30,914 nucleotides of DNA, from positions 1 through 30,914 of the forward strand of contig JAAZCN010000388.1 in NCBI GenBank assembly GCA_012513245.1, in the 5' to 3' direction. The notes under the pieces are model-generated. The model did not search any database and was not told where the DNA came from. It saw only the letters and a program-made list of their open reading frames with translations. Position numbers and translations under genes: made by a program. This stretch comes from Synergistaceae bacterium (GTDB taxonomy: Bacteria > Synergistota > Synergistia > Synergistales > Synergistaceae). How positions within the stretch are numbered: the first letter of the stretch is position 1; each line of letters starts with the position of its first letter. Below, one piece after another: positions 18,731-28,640 of the stretch.

Positions 18731-18958
18731 TTAGCTTACGTTGATCATGCATATATCCAGACCTTCGTCCCTAAGGCCTTCAATGCACCCGAGCATGTCT
18801 CCTAAAAGTTCTGAAGGTGTGAATACTGTTACTTCTCCGCTTTTGGCGTCATCTGTCCTTAAGAGACCGAGGCCTTCACACGCGTCAATAGTCCAGCTGA
18901 TATAGTATATATCCTTTTGAGGGACCTTAAGCGAGATAACGCTCAAACTAGGTTTCAC
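18731..18958 (-). CDS. Small DUF4911-type protein
   Basis: A 75-residue protein of unknown function. Its sequence, with a charged hydrophobic-alternating core (IYYISWTIDACEGLGLLRTD) and a C-terminal amphipathic helix (LLGDMLGCIEGLRDEG), resembles the DUF4911 family, to which I assign it tentatively. It starts with GTG overlapping the mltG stop (GTGA), indicating translational coupling, and ends 17 nt before tldD. No membrane segment, signal peptide or known catalytic motif is visible. Its conserved place between a cell-wall enzyme and tldD is the only functional clue. Confidence 0.7.
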   Translation of the reverse strand: MKPSLSVISLKVPQKDIYYISWTIDACEGLGLLRTDDAKSGEVTVFTPSELLGDMLGCIEGLRDEGLDICMINVS

Positions 18959-19962
18959 TCGGTCCCCGACCCCTGTTTTCTAAGGTGTTCGTCATATGTC
19001 ACGCTGAAGATGTGACTTCCGTTTGAAGTCGCAAAGAAAAAGAGGTAGTCTGTTTTTGCGGGATCCAGAGCGCTTATCCAGGAATCTTCAGAAGGTACTG
19101 AGATCGGGCCCGGAGGCAGACCGTAGTTCCTGTAAGTGTTGTAAGAAGAATCGATCTCCAGGTCTTTATAAGTGAGGCTTTTCTTTTTTATGCCCAGTTC
19201 GTCCCAGCAATAGATCACGGTAGCACAAGACTGAAGCGGCATCCATTTTTCTATCCTGTTTAAAAAGATTCCGGCCAGAATAGGGCGCTCTTCTTTTATC
19301 TTTGCCTCTCCTTCGACTATAGAAGCGAGTATTCCCCTCTGTACTGTGAATTTTTTTTCTGTATTTTCAGGAAGGTGCTTCCCTACTCTTTCCATCCACA
19401 GTTTTGACGCTCTTTTTACTGTCTGTGCTCCCACTCTGTTGCCCGGTGCAAGGGAATATGTTTCAGGAAGCAAAAAAATGATCCTGTCCCTTGGATCATC
19501 AGGCAGGAGATCATGGAGCTCGGTAGGGAAATTCCCCTTGTCGGAGAGAGCGTTTAAAAGTCCATCATCACCCTCAGGCAGTCTAAGTGCGGCGTTCATT
19601 GCGCTGTATCTTGTCCCCGGAATTATTGTTACGTTGTGCGTTACAGGCTTGGCTTCTTTAAGACGGTTTGCGACAGAAATCTCATCTCCGGGGGCAAGAA
19701 GGTATGTGCCCGGTCTCAAAGTTCTGTCAATATCAAGTTTGATCATCCATTTGATAAGTTTATTTGCGTCCCTGACCACTCCTGCATCCTTAAGCACTCT
19801 TGCGGCCTGTCCTGCAGACATGCCTCCTGTAATAGTCACTTCGATCTTTTTTGATGAGTAGGCGAACATGTCGGGATACATGGCTGGCATAACAAAGCAA
19901 AGGAAACAGAAAAGTATCAAAGCTGTCGCAGATGGTATAAGGTCTCTTGTTCTGTTTGTCAA
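18955..19962 (-). CDS. mltG: Endolytic murein transglycosylase MltG (YceG-like)
   Basis: Inner-membrane enzyme that cuts nascent peptidoglycan strands and sets glycan length. The 335-residue protein has one N-terminal membrane segment (about 11-30), a LysM-like region with GMSAGQAARVLKDAGVV, and the YceG catalytic domain with LLPETYSLAPG, the catalytic-Glu motif SIVEGEAK near residue 215, FLNRI, and the substrate-cleft segments SSYNTYRNYGLPPGPI and YLFFFATSNGSH. The start is TTG at 19962 with GGAGAG upstream; the next Met (residue 25) would destroy the membrane anchor. It heads the mltG-DUF4911-tldD-ftsK run. Confidence 0.93.
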   Translation of the reverse strand: MTNRTRDLIPSATALILFCFLCFVMPAMYPDMFAYSSKKIEVTITGGMSAGQAARVLKDAGVVRDANKLIKWMIKLDIDRTLRPGTYLLAPGDEISVANRLKEAKPVTHNVTIIPGTRYSAMNAALRLPEGDDGLLNALSDKGNFPTELHDLLPDDPRDRIIFLLPETYSLAPGNRVGAQTVKRASKLWMERVGKHLPENTEKKFTVQRGILASIVEGEAKIKEERPILAGIFLNRIEKWMPLQSCATVIYCWDELGIKKKSLTYKDLEIDSSYNTYRNYGLPPGPISVPSEDSWISALDPAKTDYLFFFATSNGSHIFSVTYDEHLRKQGSGTE

Positions 19963-20069: not shown

Positions 20070-20180
20070 GCCGGCCGGAAGATCGCCGGCGGGGAATTGC
20101 GGCGAGGATCGTGCCACGGGGAATTTGCCAGGTGGTTTGTTTGGCGGAGAAATTGCGACATAAAAACGTTGCGGAGAATT
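20070..20180 (-). repeat. Left array of four stem-loops with GGRGAAATT linkers
   Basis: Four hairpin units begin at 20070, 20099, 20127 and 20155 (spacing 29, 28, 28). Each is followed by GGGGAATT, GGGGAATTT, GGAGAAATT or GGAGAATT. Stems differ: GCCGGC/GCCGGC; GCGGCG/TGCCAC (one mismatch, one G-U); GCCAGG/TTTGGC (two G-U); GCGAC/GTTGC (one G-U). The linker is the reverse complement of that in the right array, so the two arrays are oppositely oriented. It does not match a known family that I can name. Confidence 0.75.
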
Positions 20181-20370: not shown

Positions 20371-20395
20371 CGCCCCTACTGCCCCTAATGGTCTC

Positions 20396-20561
20396 ATTCT
20401 CCGACAGATGTTTTTATTGGCAATTGACTCCCGCGGCTTGAAAAGTCGCAATTCTCCGCAGCACGTATCATGCTGCAAATTCCCCGCTGGACTTGTGTCC
20501 AGCAAATTCTCCGCGATGTTTTGCATCGCAATTCTCCGTCGGACGCAGTCCGACAATTTCC
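20396..20561 (+). repeat. Right array of six stem-loops with AATTCTCC linkers
   Basis: Hairpin units begin at 20403 (degenerate), 20433, 20458, 20486, 20513 and 20538 (spacing 30, 25, 28, 27, 25). Linkers are ATTCTCC, AATTGACTCCC, AATTCTCC, AAATTCCCC, AAATTCTCC, AATTCTCC and AATTTCC. Stems differ but pair: GCGGCTT/AAGTCGC (one G-U), GCAGCACG/CATGCTGC (one mismatch), GCTGGAC/GTCCAGC, GCGATG/CATCGC and GTCGGAC/GTCCGAC. Compensating differences between units point to selection for, or copying of, the folded form. Confidence 0.85.
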
Positions 20562-20577
20562 TAATTTAAAAAAACAC

Positions 20578-20606
20578 TTGACATTTAATCCCAACAAGAG
20601 TATATA
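20578..20606 (+). promoter_or_regulatory. Promoter of the serine operon
   Basis: A consensus TTGACA (20578-20583), 17-nt spacer and TATATA (20601-20606) predict a start near 20613, about 35 nt before the leader peptide ATG. The right stem-loop array ends 17 nt upstream of the -35 box. Confidence 0.85.
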
Positions 20607-20647
20607 TGTTAACCATTCAACGGGGACACAGGAAAGGAGCGCTTAAA

Positions 20648-20785
20648 ATGATAAGATCAGAATGTTTTGCTTATACCGGCATTTCGTCATCATCTTACTC
20701 TTCCGGCGTTTCTTCCTCATGCGGCGGCTCTGGTTGTATTTGCCGGTTCCGAAACGTGTACCCGATGGAGAGAGAAAATCGTTAA
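20648..20785 (+). CDS. Serine-rich leader peptide of the serine operon (45 aa)
   Basis: A short frame with ATG at 20648, 8 nt after AAAGGAG, ends at TAA 20783-20785. Of 45 residues 11 are Ser, 5 Gly and 4 Cys; the core GISSSSYSSGVSSSCGGSGC covers residues 11-30. Every Ser codon is TCN. The run of Ser codons (20684-20719) covers a segment able to pair with the antiterminator 5' arm, which itself lies in codons 32-37. Downstream genes make serine from 3-phosphoglycerate, and Gly and Cys derive from serine. The peptide probably has no function beyond ribosome stalling. This is inferred from classic leader-peptide attenuators (trp, his, thr). Confidence 0.85.
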   Translation: MIRSECFAYTGISSSSYSSGVSSSCGGSGCICRFRNVYPMERENR

Positions 20786-20848
20786 CTTTTCTAGAACATC
20801 AAGGCGTTTCAGGGACCGGAAGAAATTCTTCCGGTCCCTTTTTCTTTT
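20703..20848 (+). promoter_or_regulatory. Transcription attenuator: alternative antiterminator and terminator
   Basis: The terminator is GGGACCGGAAG (20812-20822) paired with CTTCCGGTCCC (20828-20838), then TTTTTCTTTT. The competing antiterminator pairs CCGGTTCCGAAACG (20743-20756) with CGTTTC-A-GGGACCGG (20805-20819): 14 bp, one G-U, one bulged A, using up 8 bases of the terminator 5' arm. GGCGTTTC occurs both at 20705-20712 in the leader and at 20803-20810, so the leader copy can compete for GAAACG (20751-20756). A ribosome stalled on the Ser codons would cover the first copy and free the antiterminator; one reaching the stop codon would mask 20743-20756 and allow termination. Confidence 0.85.
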
Positions 20849-20887
20849 GATACAATTTTAGATTTTCATAATGAGGAGGAGAAATGA

Positions 20888-22036
20888 ATGAATACGAAAT
20901 ATCTACTTACACCCGGTCCGGTGGAACTGCCTGCAGAAGTACTGAGGGCGGGCTCGCGACCGCTAATAGGACACAGGTGTCCGGCTTTTTCAGAGCTTTT
21001 TACACGGATCGAGAAGAAACTCCGGGAACTTTTAAAAAGTGAAGGCCCGGTAATAATACTTCCATCCTCAGGCACCGGCGCTCTTGAGTGCATGGCAGTC
21101 AATTTTCTGGGGAAAGGTGATAAATTCATTTCGATCTCATGCGGAGTTTTTGGCAGCAGATTTCGTGAAATTGCACTGAGAACAGGCGCCGAAGGCATCA
21201 ATATAGATGTGCAGTTCGGAGATCCTATGACGCCGGCAATAGCGGCAGAGGCAGTAAAAAACAATCCGGGCTGTAAAGTTCTCTTGATAACTCAGAATGA
21301 GACATCGACCGGCGTTCTTAATCCTATCAAAGAAATAATTGCAGCAATACCTGAAAAAGATCGTCCGTTGATCCTCGTTGACGGAGTCAGCTCTGTTGGC
21401 GCAATGGAATGCTTTCCACAGGAATGGGGCATCGACGCAATAGGAACAGCCTCTCAGAAAGGACTTCTTACCCCTCCGGGACTGGGGCTTGTTTGGCTCT
21501 CAGAAAAAGCCTGGAATGCTCTCGAAGGAAAAACATGTCCCAGCTATAGCTACGATCTGAAGCTGCACAAAAAAGACCTTGAAGCGAAATCCCCGGCAAA
21601 TCCCTTTACACCCCCGGTATCCCTTTACTATGCCCTTGACGAAGCTCTGGGGGATATACTCGAGGTTGGTACAGAGGCCTGGTTCAAATCGAGAAGAAAA
21701 TACGCCGATGCTCTAGCCGCAGGACTTGAAGCAATGGGATTTGAACTTCTCGTCAAGCGTCCGGAGGTACGCTCACCGGGAGTTACAGCCTTTAAATACC
21801 CCGGAGGCGATACGGAAGCAGTTCGTAAAAAACTTCGTGCGATGGGTATCGAGACTGCGGGAGGACAGGGAAAACTTAAAGGAGAGCTTATCAGGGTCGC
21901 ACATTACAACAACTGGGGATGGCCCGAACTCTGCATTATCCTTGGCTCGCTCTACGGGGCTGCAGATATGGCACATACTCTTAAAAAAGACTTCCTTGCA
22001 GAAGCCTGGAATGTCTGGAACAGGGAGGATCAATAG
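20888..22036 (+). CDS. Class V PLP aminotransferase, probably phosphoserine aminotransferase (SPT/AGT type)
   Basis: The 382-residue protein belongs to the alanine-glyoxylate/serine-pyruvate aminotransferase group of fold-type I PLP enzymes: LLTPGPVELPAEVL at the N-terminus, GHRCPAF, PSSGTGALECM (cofactor phosphate loop) near 58-68, VDGVSSVGAMEC with the PLP-contacting Asp near 164, and the Schiff-base lysine in ASQKGLLTPPG near residue 191. Such enzymes replace classical SerC in some archaea and bacteria. Its position behind a Ser attenuator and directly before serA supports conversion of 3-phosphohydroxypyruvate to phosphoserine; serine-glyoxylate or alanine-glyoxylate transamination remains possible. 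ATG with GGAGGAG 7 nt upstream. Confidence 0.9.
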   Translation: MNTKYLLTPGPVELPAEVLRAGSRPLIGHRCPAFSELFTRIEKKLRELLKSEGPVIILPSSGTGALECMAVNFLGKGDKFISISCGVFGSRFREIALRTGAEGINIDVQFGDPMTPAIAAEAVKNNPGCKVLLITQNETSTGVLNPIKEIIAAIPEKDRPLILVDGVSSVGAMECFPQEWGIDAIGTASQKGLLTPPGLGLVWLSEKAWNALEGKTCPSYSYDLKLHKKDLEAKSPANPFTPPVSLYYALDEALGDILEVGTEAWFKSRRKYADALAAGLEAMGFELLVKRPEVRSPGVTAFKYPGGDTEAVRKKLRAMGIETAGGQGKLKGELIRVAHYNNWGWPELCIILGSLYGAADMAHTLKKDFLAEAWNVWNREDQ

Positions 22037-22038
22037 TG

Positions 22039-23688
22039 ATGGCTGAAAATAGAAAATGGAAGGTACTGGTTGCAGAGACTGTCGGTGAGGCGGGCCTTCA
22101 GATGCTCAGGGACGCCCCTGACATTGAACTGATAGAAGAAGTGGGCATGTCACGCGAAGACCTGCTTAAAAAACTGCCCGAAATGGATGCAGTGCTCACA
22201 AGAAGCGGTACAAAGATGGACGAAGAAGCCCTGAACGCAGCAGTAAATCTCAAAGTAGTTGCCCGTGCAGGTGTTGGTGTGGACAATGTCAATGTTCCTA
22301 TTGCCAGCCGTAAGGGTGTAGTGGTCATAAATGCACCTACCGGAAACACACTTGCGGCAGCAGAACTGACAATGGCTCTTATGCTGGGGCTCGTAAGAAA
22401 GGTCCCGCAGGCATTTGGTTCCCTTAGGAGCGGTGAATGGGACAGAAAAAGATTCTCAGGCCACCAGCTTAGCGGCAAGAAGGTCCTCGTTCTCGGACTT
22501 GGAAGGATAGGTGTAGCAGTAGCCCAGCGCTGCCGCGCTTTTGGAATGGATGTTATCGCATACGATCCCTACACGCCGAAGAAGAAAGCGGAGTCACTTG
22601 GCATACCAATGAGGGAAGACCTCGCTGACGCGCTCTCGATAGCCGACGTTGTTACGATCCACATGCCGCTTACACCTGACACCGCCAATATGATAGATGA
22701 AAAAACGCTCAAAGCATTCAAAAAGGGAGCGTATCTGATAAACTGCGCAAGGGGCGGCATAGTGGACGAAAAGGCGGCGGCCGATGCGGTAAGGGACGGA
22801 AGGCTGTCAGGAATAGCTTTTGATGTATATACTGCAGAGCCTCTGTGTGAAGGTCATCCCTTCCTTGCTAAAGACATTGAAGACAAGATAATCATAACTC
22901 CGCACCTTGGAGCCAGCACAGAAGAGGCACAGACAGAGGTCGCAAAGATCGCCGCAGCGAACATGATTGCAGCTCTGAGGGGTGAACCTTACGACCATGC
23001 TGTGAACCTTCCCTTCCTGGAACAGAAACTTAACAAAGCCCAGATGGCATTCCTTCAGCTTTCAAGAAAAATGGGAATAATGGGGGCCAAACTTGCAGAA
23101 ACAGAGTGCGGTGCTATTCATAGCTGCCACATTATGCTGCGCGGAGATATGTTTGCCGAGGATGAACCACTGCCCAACAGGCTTTGTGCCTACAGCATAG
23201 CTGTACTTAAAGGTCTTTTTGAGGTGATCAGCGGTCCGGAAGTCTCATATATGCTTGCACCCCTCCTTGCCAAGGACAGCGGTCTGAGTGTGGACGAAGG
23301 TATAGGAGATCCTAAAACATATAAAAATACCGTGGAGGTAAAACTGGACGCGGAAAAATGCAATGTTTCTCTGATAGGGACCATCACAGAAGAGGGCCGT
23401 ATGCGTATTGTAAAAGTTAATGAATACTGGCTCGATTTTGTTCCCAGCGGCAAGCTCATACTTTTCCAAAACCACGACAGACCCGGCGTAATTGGAAAGA
23501 TCGGTAATATCCTTGGTGACGCCAAGATCAACATCGCCAACTTTGCCCTCGGAAGAAAGGACAACAGCGGGCTGGCGCTTGGAGCGCTTGAAGTTGACAG
23601 CGACATCGATGAGTTAACAAAGAAAAAACTTGAAAAGAGCGGAGACATGCTTTGGCTCACCCTCATCGATTTCACTGATGCGGAATAA
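22039..23688 (+). CDS. serA: D-3-phosphoglycerate dehydrogenase with ACT domain
   Basis: Oxidises 3-phosphoglycerate to 3-phosphohydroxypyruvate, the committed step of serine synthesis. The 549-residue length is that of the long SerA type: split substrate domain, NAD domain with VLGLGRIGVAVAQ near 153-165, catalytic Arg in NCARGGIVDE, His in ITPHLGAST, an intervening ASB domain (about 320-470), and a C-terminal ACT domain beginning LILFQNHDRPGVIGKIGNIL, the usual site of serine feedback. ATG at 22039 is used; a GTG at 22036, overlapping the previous stop, is also possible since GGAGG lies 7 nt before it. The gene couples directly to the aminotransferase. Confidence 0.97.
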   Translation: MAENRKWKVLVAETVGEAGLQMLRDAPDIELIEEVGMSREDLLKKLPEMDAVLTRSGTKMDEEALNAAVNLKVVARAGVGVDNVNVPIASRKGVVVINAPTGNTLAAAELTMALMLGLVRKVPQAFGSLRSGEWDRKRFSGHQLSGKKVLVLGLGRIGVAVAQRCRAFGMDVIAYDPYTPKKKAESLGIPMREDLADALSIADVVTIHMPLTPDTANMIDEKTLKAFKKGAYLINCARGGIVDEKAAADAVRDGRLSGIAFDVYTAEPLCEGHPFLAKDIEDKIIITPHLGASTEEAQTEVAKIAAANMIAALRGEPYDHAVNLPFLEQKLNKAQMAFLQLSRKMGIMGAKLAETECGAIHSCHIMLRGDMFAEDEPLPNRLCAYSIAVLKGLFEVISGPEVSYMLAPLLAKDSGLSVDEGIGDPKTYKNTVEVKLDAEKCNVSLIGTITEEGRMRIVKVNEYWLDFVPSGKLILFQNHDRPGVIGKIGNILGDAKINIANFALGRKDNSGLALGALEVDSDIDELTKKKLEKSGDMLWLTLIDFTDAE

Positions 23689-24863: not shown

Positions 24864-26879
24864 CTATTCTTTTACAAGTTTGGTCAGATATTTATCGTCA
24901 GCTATAAACGGAACTGTGATGTGACCATCGCTTCTCTTGCTGTTGAACTCCTCTGCGGTTGAAATAGCATGTTCATTTCTTGCCCAGGAACGTCTTGCTA
25001 CTCCGCTGATCACGTCCCAGCTCAAAGAAGATTTTATCACGCTGTCTACCCTTTCACTTCCATCAAGCACAAGGCCGAAACCGCCGTTTATAGCTTTGCC
25101 GGTCCCGACTCCTCCGCCGTTGTGCAGTGCCACCATACTCATTCCCCTGGCGCAGTTTCCTGCGAAGCAGTGTATGGCCATCTCGCCCATGATGTTGCTT
25201 CCGTCCTTGATATTAGAAGTTTCACGGTATGGCGAATCGGTCCCTGATACGTCGTGGTGGTCTCTTCCCAACATGACAGGCCCTATATCACCGGTACGGA
25301 CCATTTCATTGAACTTAAGTGCAATACGCATTCTTCCCTCTTCGTCCTGATATAGTATCCTGCACTGTGTACCGACGACCAGCTTATTCTTTTCTGCGTC
25401 CCTGATCCATGCCCAGTTGTCGTGATCCTGGAACCTACGGGTAGGGTCGATGCAGTCCATGGCAGCTTTATCTGTCTTCCTGAGATCTTCCGGGTCGCGG
25501 CTGAGGCAGCACCAGCGGAAGGGACCGTAGCCGTAATCGAAGAGGAGCGGACCCATAATGTCTTCTACATATGAGGGGAAGATGAATCCTTCATATGTAT
25601 CGACTCCGTTTTTAGAGATTTCTGTGATTCCCGCGTCAAAGACGGCTCTCATGAAGGAGTTGCCGTAGTCAAAGAAATAGGTTCCTTTCTCTGTAAGTGA
25701 CTTGATCAGTTCATAATGCTTCTTGAGTGTCTTGTCTACGAGTTTGCAGAACTTTTCTTTGTCCTCTGTAAGAAGTCTTGTCCTCTCTTCGAACGTAATG
25801 TCCTGCGGGCAGTATCCGCCATCGTAGACTGCGTGGCATGATGTCTGGTCTGAGAGAAGTTCTATGTTGATATTTTTGTCTAGCGCGAACTGCAGAAGGT
25901 CTACGATGTTGCCTTCGTAGGCTATCGAAAGAGGCTTGCCCTCATCCATTGCTTTCTTTGCCCATTTGAAGGCCTCAGATAGATCTTTGGTCTTTTTGCT
26001 GACCCATCCCTGGCTGTGTCTTGTCTCTATACGCGAGGGGTCGACCTCTGCGACGATAGAGACAGCGCCTGCGATCTCTGCGGCTTTCGGCTGTGCTCCG
26101 CTCATTCCGCCAAGTCCGGAGGAGACGAAAAGGTGTCCTGCAAGGCCCTTGCCTTCGGGCAGGTGGAATTTGCTTCTTCCGGCGTTGAGGAGTGTGTTGT
26201 ACGTTCCGTGTACTATGCCCTGGGGACCGATGTACATCCATCCTCCGGCTGTCATCTGACCGTAGTTGGCTACACCGAGAGCCGCTGCCCTTGCAAAATC
26301 CTTGGGATTGTCGAACATGCCTATCATAAGGCCGTTCGTCAGTATTACCCTTGGAGCAGAAGGGTCGGAACGGAAGAGGCCCAGGGGATGTCCTGACTGT
26401 ACTATCAGAGTCTGGTCGGGTGTGAGTATTTCAAGGTATTTTTTGATCAGTTGATACTGCATCCAGTTCTGGCATACCTGTCCGGTCTCACCGTAAGTTA
26501 CAAGTTCATATGGATAGAGAGCTACCTCAAAGTCCAGATTATTGTCGATCATTACCTGGATGGCTTTGCCCTCTGTGCATTTGCCCCTGTATTTATCGAT
26601 CGGTTTTCCATAGAGGTGCCCCTGAGGTCTGCACCGGTAACCGTATATGCGTCCATGTTCACGGTATTCCTGTAGGAATTCCGGTGCGATCTCTTTATGG
26701 TACTTTTCAGGTATGTAACGAAGCGCATTCTTAAGAGCAAGTACCGTCTCTTTATCGTTCAGTACCTGTCCTCTGTTTGGAGCTCTTCTGATATCTGCCT
26801 CGAAATCCGCTTTGGGTGGGAGCCCTTTTGAAAAGTCCAGAGTTATTTCGAGTGCTTTTCCTGTCTTTGGATCAAACAT
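24864..26879 (-). CDS. hutU: Urocanate hydratase
   Basis: Hydrates urocanate to 4-imidazolone-5-propanoate using tightly bound NAD+ as an electrophile. The 671-residue protein is the long form (vertebrate-like length) rather than the about 555-residue Pseudomonas type. Recognisable stretches are the NAD-region SSGLGGMSGAQPKAAEIAGA, GWVSKKTKDLSEA, the LLSDQTSCHAVYDGGY segment, FRWCCLSRDPEDL and the C-terminal ALHNGGGVGTGKAINGGFG. ATG start with GGAG upstream. It leads the leftward hutU-fchA transcript and shares a 228-nt control region with hutH. Confidence 0.97.
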   Translation of the reverse strand: MFDPKTGKALEITLDFSKGLPPKADFEADIRRAPNRGQVLNDKETVLALKNALRYIPEKYHKEIAPEFLQEYREHGRIYGYRCRPQGHLYGKPIDKYRGKCTEGKAIQVMIDNNLDFEVALYPYELVTYGETGQVCQNWMQYQLIKKYLEILTPDQTLIVQSGHPLGLFRSDPSAPRVILTNGLMIGMFDNPKDFARAAALGVANYGQMTAGGWMYIGPQGIVHGTYNTLLNAGRSKFHLPEGKGLAGHLFVSSGLGGMSGAQPKAAEIAGAVSIVAEVDPSRIETRHSQGWVSKKTKDLSEAFKWAKKAMDEGKPLSIAYEGNIVDLLQFALDKNINIELLSDQTSCHAVYDGGYCPQDITFEERTRLLTEDKEKFCKLVDKTLKKHYELIKSLTEKGTYFFDYGNSFMRAVFDAGITEISKNGVDTYEGFIFPSYVEDIMGPLLFDYGYGPFRWCCLSRDPEDLRKTDKAAMDCIDPTRRFQDHDNWAWIRDAEKNKLVVGTQCRILYQDEEGRMRIALKFNEMVRTGDIGPVMLGRDHHDVSGTDSPYRETSNIKDGSNIMGEMAIHCFAGNCARGMSMVALHNGGGVGTGKAINGGFGLVLDGSERVDSVIKSSLSWDVISGVARRSWARNEHAISTAEEFNSKRSDGHITVPFIADDKYLTKLVKE

Positions 26880-27107
26880 GCTGCGTCAACTCCATTCATT
26901 GTGATTTTTAATATAATTGGATATTTTACTTGACTAAGAAAAATATCTGACTATATAATTGTAACGCAAAGGTTTAGGAATGGAAAGTATTAAAGCTGTG
27001 AAATATGATAAATATCTAACAGTAAAATGTTTCACCCTAATAACACGATTATAGCACCTGAGATCAAAGAGAAAAGCAGTCAAATACGATAAAGGGGGAT
27101 GTATCAA
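26880..27107. promoter_or_regulatory. Divergent control region between hutU and hutH
   Basis: The 228-nt AT-rich gap holds a good rightward promoter: TTGACT (26930-26935), 18-nt spacer, TATAAT (26954-26959), start near 26966 with a leader of about 140 nt. For hutU only a weak leftward TATATT with a poor TTAGTC is seen. An 8-bp inverted repeat, GATATTTT/AAAATATC at 26920-26947, brackets the -35 box and could be an operator. No terminator or known riboswitch is recognised in the leader. Confidence 0.65.
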
Positions 27108-28640
27108 ATGGGTACAAATTCAGTCGTACTGGACGGAAAATCTTTAACAATTGAGGACATTGTCAACGTCTCAAGAAATGGGTATAAGGTTGAGCTTGAT
27201 CCTAATGCAGAAAAGCTTATAACAGAATGCGCTGATTCTGTCAGTGCATGGGCTAACGAAGGGCGCGTAGTTTATGGTGTAACTACAGGGTTTGGGGATC
27301 TGGCATCAGTGGTCATCCCACGCGACCAGAGCCGTCAGCTGCAGGAAAATCTTTTGATGAGCCATGCATGCGGTTTTGGAGAAGCCCTTGCTGAAGATTT
27401 TGTAAGAGCAATAATGCTTCTTCGCATCAACACCCTTACCAGAGGCTACTCCGGCATAAGCCTCAACACACTTACACAGCTTCTAAACTATCTCAATCTT
27501 GGTATACATCCTGTAATTCCGCGTCAGGGATCAGTAGGAGCCAGCGGTGACCTCTGCCCTCTTTCACACCTTGCGATAACCCTTATCGGGCTGGGAGACG
27601 TGGTTTACAAAGGTAAAAAGATGTCCACCAAAGAGGTACTGAGCCTTACAGGAATGAAACCTGTCGAACTGATGCCGAAAGAAGGGCTTGCCCTGAACAA
27701 CGGCACTACGGTCATGACAAGTATAGCAGCACTATGTGTCTATGATGCAAAAAAACTTATGAAGAATGCGGATATTGCCTCAGCTCTATCAGCTGAAGCA
27801 CTGCACGCCGTTCCCTACGCCTTTGACAGGCGTACTCACGATCTGCGTCCTCAGGTCGGACAGAGCATAGTTGCCGAGAACATGAGAAGGCTTATCGAAG
27901 GCAGTGAAATAATCGAGACATACAAAAAAGACCGCGTTCAGGACGCATACTCTCTGCGCTGCCTCCCTCAGGTCCACGGAGCCAGCAGAGATGCACTTGC
28001 ATATGTAGAAAACATCATCAACATAGAGATAAATTCAGTCACAGACAACCCGATAATATTCCATGAAGACGGAGATGCTATAAGTGGAGGCAACTTCCAC
28101 GGACAGCCTATAGCCATGGCTATGGATTTCTTTGGAATCGCCGCAGCAGAGATAGCAAACATATCTGAACGGCGGGTGGCAAGGCTTGTAGACCATAAGC
28201 TGTCTGACCTCCCTCCTTTCCTTGTGTCCCAGAGCGGAGTCAACAATGGGTTCATGATACCTCAGTACACTGCTGCTGCTATAGTCTCGGAGAATAAAGT
28301 CCTGGCACATCCTTCGTGCGTGGACTCCATTCCCACCTCTGCAGGGCAGGAAGATCACGTCTCAATGGGAGCGTTCAGCTCAGTAAAAGGGTTCAGGATA
28401 TTAAACAACACCAGACGTGTGATCTCTATAGAGATGCTCAACGCAGCTCAGGGCCTCGATTTCAGGACCCCGCTCAAGCCGGGCCGCGGTACATCGGCAG
28501 CGTACAAAGCATTCCGCAGTGAGATCCCTTTCTACGCAAAGGATCAGTATATGCAGCCTCTTATGCTGAAATCTCTTGAACTGGTGACTGATGGCACTAT
28601 AATTGATGCAGTTGAGAAAGAGATCGGGGAATTAAAGTAA
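27108..28640 (+). CDS. hutH: Histidine ammonia-lyase
   Basis: Removes ammonia from histidine to form urocanate, the first step of degradation. The 510-residue length is standard. The autocatalytic MIO cofactor forms from Ala145-Ser146-Gly147 in GSVGASGDLCPLSH; the active-site Tyr is in VYGVTTGFGDL near residue 56, and NGTTVMTS, RVQDAYSLRC and QEDHVSMGAF are also diagnostic. An in-frame ATG at 27099 touches the AAAGGGGG site, whereas 27108 is about 10 nt after it, so the latter is used. First gene of the rightward hut transcript; ftcD follows 39 nt later. Confidence 0.98.
   Translation: MGTNSVVLDGKSLTIEDIVNVSRNGYKVELDPNAEKLITECADSVSAWANEGRVVYGVTTGFGDLASVVIPRDQSRQLQENLLMSHACGFGEALAEDFVRAIMLLRINTLTRGYSGISLNTLTQLLNYLNLGIHPVIPRQGSVGASGDLCPLSHLAITLIGLGDVVYKGKKMSTKEVLSLTGMKPVELMPKEGLALNNGTTVMTSIAALCVYDAKKLMKNADIASALSAEALHAVPYAFDRRTHDLRPQVGQSIVAENMRRLIEGSEIIETYKKDRVQDAYSLRCLPQVHGASRDALAYVENIINIEINSVTDNPIIFHEDGDAISGGNFHGQPIAMAMDFFGIAAAEIANISERRVARLVDHKLSDLPPFLVSQSGVNNGFMIPQYTAAAIVSENKVLAHPSCVDSIPTSAGQEDHVSMGAFSSVKGFRILNNTRRVISIEMLNAAQGLDFRTPLKPGRGTSAAYKAFRSEIPFYAKDQYMQPLMLKSLELVTDGTIIDAVEKEIGELK

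Follow-up and report, generated by a model that had tools for sequence, protein, structure and literature searches.

A candidate serine leader-peptide attenuator upstream of serA in Synergistota

Leader-peptide attenuators are known from the enterobacterial trp, his, thr, leu, ilv and phe operons. A T-box leader interacts with tRNA itself and does without a leader ORF. Attenuation of the his operon by a leader peptide is outlined in the passages of PMC9413887 that deal with this operon, which also report His attenuators in Firmicutes. According to the corresponding sections of a 2010 survey (PMC2965389), the main text of which never mentions serine, leader-peptide systems were known to its authors only in Proteobacteria and Actinobacteria, with two exceptions, the atypical leader of ermC and the His case that they themselves described in bacilli. 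For Actinobacteria, Trp, Cys and Leu leader peptides are given in the relevant part of PMC1262725. As regards serine, the pertinent lines of PMC8002221 place serine biosynthesis in Paenibacillus under T-box control, the account of the alpha-proteobacterial serC element (RF00517) in PMC1273637 presents two stems, proposed to hide the ribosome-binding site, and, in the passages of PMC3862929 on Bacillus subtilis sinR, the UCN serine codons of this gene respond to serine starvation. Among the matches listed from the open-licence literature, beyond which many attenuator papers lie, no serine leader-peptide attenuator is described.

The window, meaning the whole stretch of 30,914 nucleotides of a Synergistaceae contig (JAAZCN010000388.1) that was analysed, carries upstream of serA a leader whose parts are collected in the table, and in which the anatomy expected of a serine leader-peptide attenuator is confirmed. 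A preliminary description had announced a consensus promoter, a term that holds for the -35 box (6/6 positions) and fails for the weak -10 box (4/6), the pair not being among the matches of a consensus promoter scan of the window; both boxes are invariant across seven aligned loci. The ribosome-binding site and the 45-codon ORF with 11 Ser codons, also announced, are read directly in the sequence. The peptide would be MIRSECFAYTGISSSSYSSGVSSSCGGSGCICRFRNVYPMERENR, its Ser codons being UCN without exception and accompanied by 4 Cys codons and, with ORF, Shine-Dalgarno sequence and coding signature in place, translation is predicted. The antiterminator, given as 14 bp with one G-U pair and one bulge, was found with an extra U-G pair (20757 x 20804), joining 20743-20757 to 20804-20810 plus 20812-20819 around one bulged A (20811), with a free energy of -30.4 kcal/mol (z -3.74 versus 200 shuffles). 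The terminator is present with its T tract between the leader ORF and the first gene, its stem of 13 bp being slightly longer than the 11 bp claimed, and reaches -24.3 kcal/mol (z -5.66). Both the 8 bases held in common by these two structures (20812-20819) and the duplication of GGCGTTTC (copies at 20705-20712 and 20803-20810) are as had been reported. A strong 1:2 hairpin was not found, the stretch 20696-20765 folding like shuffles (z 0.09), and the alternative segment 1 is listed as putative because its stretch folds no better than shuffles.

Features of the leader and of the genes that follow it (positions in the window)
Feature	Position	Strand	Remarks
Promoter	20578-20606	+	-35 TTGACA 20578-20583, 17-nt spacer, -10 TATATA 20601-20606
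Shine-Dalgarno AAAGGAG of leader ORF	20633-20639	+	anti-SD duplex -7.2 kcal/mol
Leader ORF	20648-20785	+	ATG to TAA, 45 aa; Ser enrichment, coding signature
Candidate segment 1, GGCGTTTC	20705-20712	+	inside Ser codon run; putative pairing with segment 2
Alternative segment 1, CGGCTCTGGT	20725-20734	+	around last Ser codon; putative folding on 20742-20751
Segment 2, antiterminator 5' arm, CCGGTTCCGAAACGT	20743-20757	+	fold; both-side changes in relatives
Segment 3, antiterminator 3' arm	20804-20819	+	20812-20819 doubles as terminator 5' arm
Intrinsic terminator	20811-20847	+	13-bp stem, 3-nt loop (20811-20839), T tract
Class-V aminotransferase (serC-like, presumed phosphoserine aminotransferase)	20888-22036	+	first structural gene
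serA, phosphoglycerate dehydrogenase	22036-23688	+	TIGR01327 554 bits, cut-off 454

Regarding the genes downstream, the first of which is preceded by a GAGGAGG motif, the pair had been called serC-like and serA; the second name stands, serA scoring above its cut-off, and the first gene, a class-V aminotransferase of presumed biosynthetic role, scores far below the cut-offs of the SerC models. The nearest solved structure by sequence is 2dr1, named hypothetical serine aminotransferase. Since the SerC model TIGR01364 is over its cut-off in 0/9 close relatives, the class-V aminotransferase is likely the phosphoserine aminotransferase. Six Synergistaceae metagenome genomes come nearest to the window, with 88-95% identity in the aminotransferase, and we take the window to belong to their group, within the phylum Synergistota. 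In two other loci (L118 and L119, from genomes G028 and G032) the serA homologues are read with one internal TGA, the Ser-rich leader being intact.

Apart from the leader, repeat arrays were observed at 20395-20560 (+) and 20091-20180 (-) of the window, in which a constant spacer, AAATTCTCC or near it, alternates with short hairpins whose stem sequence varies from unit to unit with self-complementarity kept; in the + array, the terminal stem reaches 5 bp or more in 5/5 typed units. The pattern AAATTCTCCGN{12,24}AATTCTCC occurs 41 times in 7/9 close relative genomes (reversed-pattern control, 0), and a terminal stem of no fewer than 5 bp is present in 13/22 distinct inner segments, the shuffles averaging 0.14/22. 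The arrays are a dispersed repeat family with variable palindromes.

The survey of the leader was extended to 185 genomes of the phylum to which the genome of locus L001 belongs, 71 of them with the aminotransferase (E<=1e-60) and 87 with serA (E<=1e-90). A total of 69 upstream regions, 67 of them distinct and the window included, were searched for short ORFs in which a stretch of 20 residues contains 6 or more Ser, and compared with 30 dinucleotide shuffles per region. Loci L001-L006 were left out of the counts, as they are the same places as L009, L011-L013, L015 and L016; L068 and L072 have less than 229 nt upstream, L113 and L126 offered too little upstream sequence, G005 (= L127) was left out of the shuffle test, and 2/73 aminotransferase matches (G127:C210 and G038:C97), being at contig ends, are not in the sample. 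The Ser-rich ORF, the keeping of which in homologues had been proposed as a check on the reading, is present in 57/69 regions, and in 43/69 with at least 7 Ser. The enrichment in codons of a single amino acid that is expected of an attenuator was found for Ser, which beats all 30 shuffles in 40/69 regions, followed by Gly (10), Pro (10), Ala (9) and the others with fewer. A terminator below -12 kcal/mol was called in 58/69 regions by a simple rule that overlooks some visible terminators (e.g. L066), and 53 regions combine it with the Ser ORF, 25 of these having a significant antiterminator besides. In addition, where serA has no aminotransferase relative in the fetched stretch, a Ser-rich ORF lies directly upstream of it in 10/16 cases, only 6/16 beating all shuffles for Ser.

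The 12/69 regions that fail the Ser threshold comprise L019, which keeps the terminator, L020, L036, L048 and L049, without a terminator by the rule, L023, L025, L045 and L073, with 5 Ser each, and L076-L078, which are 41-43% identical. L019 and L020 belong to 1.6 Mb genomes that have the aminotransferase and serA with no Ser-rich ORF upstream. Among 55 distinct leaders, Ser makes up 23.8% of the residues versus 7.3% in the downstream gene, a leader percentage that is inflated because these ORFs were picked for Ser richness, and the share of UCN among Ser codons is 457/522 versus 1150/1490.

Among the close relatives, seven aligned loci all retain the promoter, the run of Ser codons and segments 2-4, and indels in that run come in multiples of three. 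The stop codon shifts, L003/L013/L014 and L006/L015 stopping directly after segment 2, and the nucleotides past the moved stop stay alike. Pairwise codon differences in the Ser region of nine leaders are 137 synonymous and 136 nonsynonymous in frame (137/273), against 39 and 198 (39/237) and 48 and 192 (48/240) in the other frames, and at the N-terminus 10/10 compared codons change the residue. This in-frame excess of synonymous differences, together with the changing N-terminal codons, argues that the Ser region is selected for the encoded residues, in this frame only, and that the N-terminus is free. On the scale of the phylum the leader sequences diverge freely; the Ser codons and the terminator persist, and the antiterminator does so in 27/57 loci.

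Indeed, the duplex between a segment of the ORF region and the terminator 5' arm is significant (p<0.05) in these 27/57 loci, about 3 being expected, and not significant in 30/57, and it falls in the top 5% of a cross-locus segment control in 17/57, all these counts spanning related and hence non-independent loci. L035 and L075 are outside them because the terminator call fell inside the ORF, and L019, L068 and L072 gave no ORF in this comparison. The antiterminator arm begins inside the ORF in 54/57 loci, a figure that is partly built in because the arm search began at the ORF start. In the wider clade of the window (15 sequences, 14 pairs), 200/210 cells pair, with the register picked per sequence to maximise pairs, which favours the structure. 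In this clade the pairing of 20743-20756 with 20804-20819, whose breakage in homologues was to have spoken against the reading, is kept despite changes on both sides, found at pairs 7 and 9. Moreover, one site co-varies in segments 2-3-4, as C-G-C in seven sequences, C-G-T in one and T-A-T in seven; such a three-way change is what mutually exclusive stems would predict, but the subclades amount to few independent events. A MAFFT alignment of clade A breaks the pairs in one subclade because the bulge is lost there. The folds of the window and the clade comparison both support an antiterminator that is mutually exclusive with the terminator and becomes available when a ribosome stalls on the Ser codons. 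The interpretation offered in the preliminary description, a Ser leader-peptide attenuator of the serA operon, is supported by these sequence comparisons.

From these features a mechanism can be proposed in which transcription would start near 20612 and a ribosome would begin to translate the leader ORF of 45 codons. A shortage of charged Ser-tRNA (UCN isoacceptors) would make this ribosome stall on codons 13-28, the Ser run, with a leading edge that reaches no farther than about 20741, immediately 5' of segment 2; this segment would pair with segment 3 once the latter is made, the terminator would come too late and the polymerase would continue into the aminotransferase and serA. With serine plentiful, the synthesis of segments 3 and 4 would coincide with the passage of the ribosome over segment 2, the 3:4 terminator would form and transcription would halt near 20847. 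In this replete state, segment 2 may still be covered by a coupled ribosome at the time segment 3 is transcribed; alternatively, such a ribosome, located between segments 2 and 3, may hinder their pairing.

The folding calculations were carried out with the ribosome edge modelled 12 nt downstream of the A-site codon's first base, which is where the leading edge of the ribosome lies. For a ribosome on Ser codons 13-28 the modelled edge lies between 20696 and 20741; once the RNA has reached 20822, the antiterminator probability is 0.89-1.00 for these positions, and it falls to 0.00 when the ribosome is over segment 2. At the same RNA length the probability is 1.00 without a ribosome and 0.96 with one at the stop codon (covering 20765-20795). 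Since the ORF extends 25 nt beyond segment 2, a ribosome at the stop leaves that arm uncovered, and since the antiterminator forms with the ribosome absent or at the stop, the replete state would need coupling or steric hindrance. Once the RNA extends to 20850, the terminator prevails at equilibrium for each of the ribosome positions tried, and therefore the switch must be kinetic. In the model, the replete state is the least secure point, folding alone leaving it unexplained. We infer both the kinetic window and the control of expression by serine, a response to Ser-tRNA charging being the best reading of the leader. All in all, the leader is very probably a ribosome-mediated transcription attenuator sensing serine, as comparison and modelling suggest, and the switch probably turns serine synthesis on when serine is short.

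Several other readings have to be weighed against this attenuator. The Ser-rich ORF could be a chance frame in a pyrimidine-rich region, with a terminator that ends another transcript, which would agree with the weak -10 box and with a control made of the regions upstream of hutH in Synergistota, where 8/29 pass the Ser threshold and 4 beat all shuffles; in all 8 passing regions, however, the Ser-rich frame lies antisense to the divergent hutU (L134 not quite wholly), the dinucleotide shuffles do not give the Ser signal, the coding signature is present and the large ORF found 5' of the leader (18955-19962) is on the opposite strand. The chance frame was rejected on the grounds of shuffles, natural controls and codon-difference counts, and we regard it as extremely improbable. 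As a side result, the antisense strand of the start of hutU is a source of false positives in scans for Ser-rich frames, and the window itself has a divergent hutU (-) and hutH (+) at 24864-28640. Coding selection on the Ser region, as well as the keeping of CGGSGC or a near variant in the close relatives of the window, would equally suit a small functional protein or a peptidic natural product, rich in Ser, Cys and Gly by chance, with a terminator that merely lowers expression. This second reading is nevertheless ranked low because, by eye, little besides Ser richness is kept across the phylum; moreover, in close relatives none of the ten compared N-terminal codons keeps its residue, and towards its 3' end the ORF is conserved as nucleotide sequence across the shifting stop codon, all of which makes a small protein very unlikely. 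A pair of terminator and antiterminator would fit any sensor, and the sensor could be a leader that binds tRNA (T-box) or a metabolite (serine riboswitch), or else a terminator under protein control, the ORF being incidental. In fact, in the phylum of a Clostridia genome (G186), the same operon has a T-box in 11/20 loci searched, and the Ser threshold is passed there in 1/30 upstream regions; the aminotransferase was recognised before serA in 18/30 of these loci and, in the other 12/30, tested directly upstream of serA, the true operon start may be elsewhere and the region perhaps intra-operon. Against such a sensor, no Rfam family reached its gathering score in the window or in 20 chosen Synergistota loci, neither the T-box (RF00230) nor, by covariance model, the serC element RF00517 having a match in them, and the Ser codon enrichment and the coding selection would be left unexplained. 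The T-box, the other Rfam riboswitches and RF00517 were rejected as the identity of the leader on these searches, and we consider an incidental ORF highly unlikely.

A different matter is whether the attenuator would sense the serine family (Ser and Cys, perhaps Gly) and not serine alone. Cys, which was not selected for in picking the 55 leaders, makes up 5.3% of their residues versus 1.5% in the downstream gene, so that its enrichment over that gene is about the same as that of Ser (3.4x and 3.3x). It exceeds the shuffles (p<=0.05) in 13/69 regions, in 6/16 of the serA-only set and in 1/29 of the hutH control, a signal far weaker than that of Ser; Gly, for its part, exceeds them in 17/69 regions, but in 0/16 of the serA-only set and 6/29 of the control, being no better than the latter. 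The TGY codons may serve RNA pairing, and the compositional background is a single gene family. The Cys excess suggests serine-family (dual) sensing, which we regard as rather unlikely. We would be equally hesitant about a wider statement, for the time being doubtful, in which an attenuator constrained in anatomy and not in sequence would be spread across much of the phylum, in the place of the T-box, reading Ser (UCN) and Cys.

The putative serine attenuator may now be set beside the described systems. With RF00517 (PMC1273637) it shares the position of a cis-regulatory RNA before serC-serA, although the description of that element in the source mentions no leader peptide, and the element has no match in the window. 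With sinR it shares the use of UCN codons, which account for 457/522 Ser codons in the Synergistota leaders; however, as the passages of PMC3862929 on this gene describe it, sinR involves no attenuator and works by a lowered synthesis of the codon-carrying protein. The T-box before the serA operons of Bacillota is likewise a leader RNA that controls serine biosynthesis genes, but its model was unmatched in the 20 Synergistota loci searched; related operons elsewhere having a T-box, different sensors would therefore act on the same genes. The candidate Cys leaders of Actinobacteria also place runs of serine-family codons before biosynthetic genes, and differ in the amino acid, cysteine, and in that, according to the relevant part of PMC1262725, no conserved terminator hairpin was found in Mycobacterium. 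Similarly to the leader of the window, the His leaders of Firmicutes, as presented in the pertinent passages of PMC9413887 and PMC2965389, bring attenuation outside Proteobacteria, replacing the T-boxes of other lineages, but they respond to histidine and contain three to five consecutive His codons.

A further parallel is that with the enterobacterial attenuators, which likewise combine a short ORF rich in codons of the end product, a terminator, a competing antiterminator and a biosynthetic operon, and from which the present leader would depart in the amino acid (serine), in the phylum (Synergistota), in an ORF that often extends past the antiterminator arm and in a weak 1:2 protector. Since the leaders vary almost freely, they offer dozens of natural experiments on the number of Ser codons, the choice of UCN and the position of the arm. 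As far as we have searched, the mechanism suggested is the known, textbook one, and the amino acid sensed and the phylum would be new. If this is true, leader-peptide attenuation gains serine as a sensed amino acid and Synergistota as a phylum that employs it.
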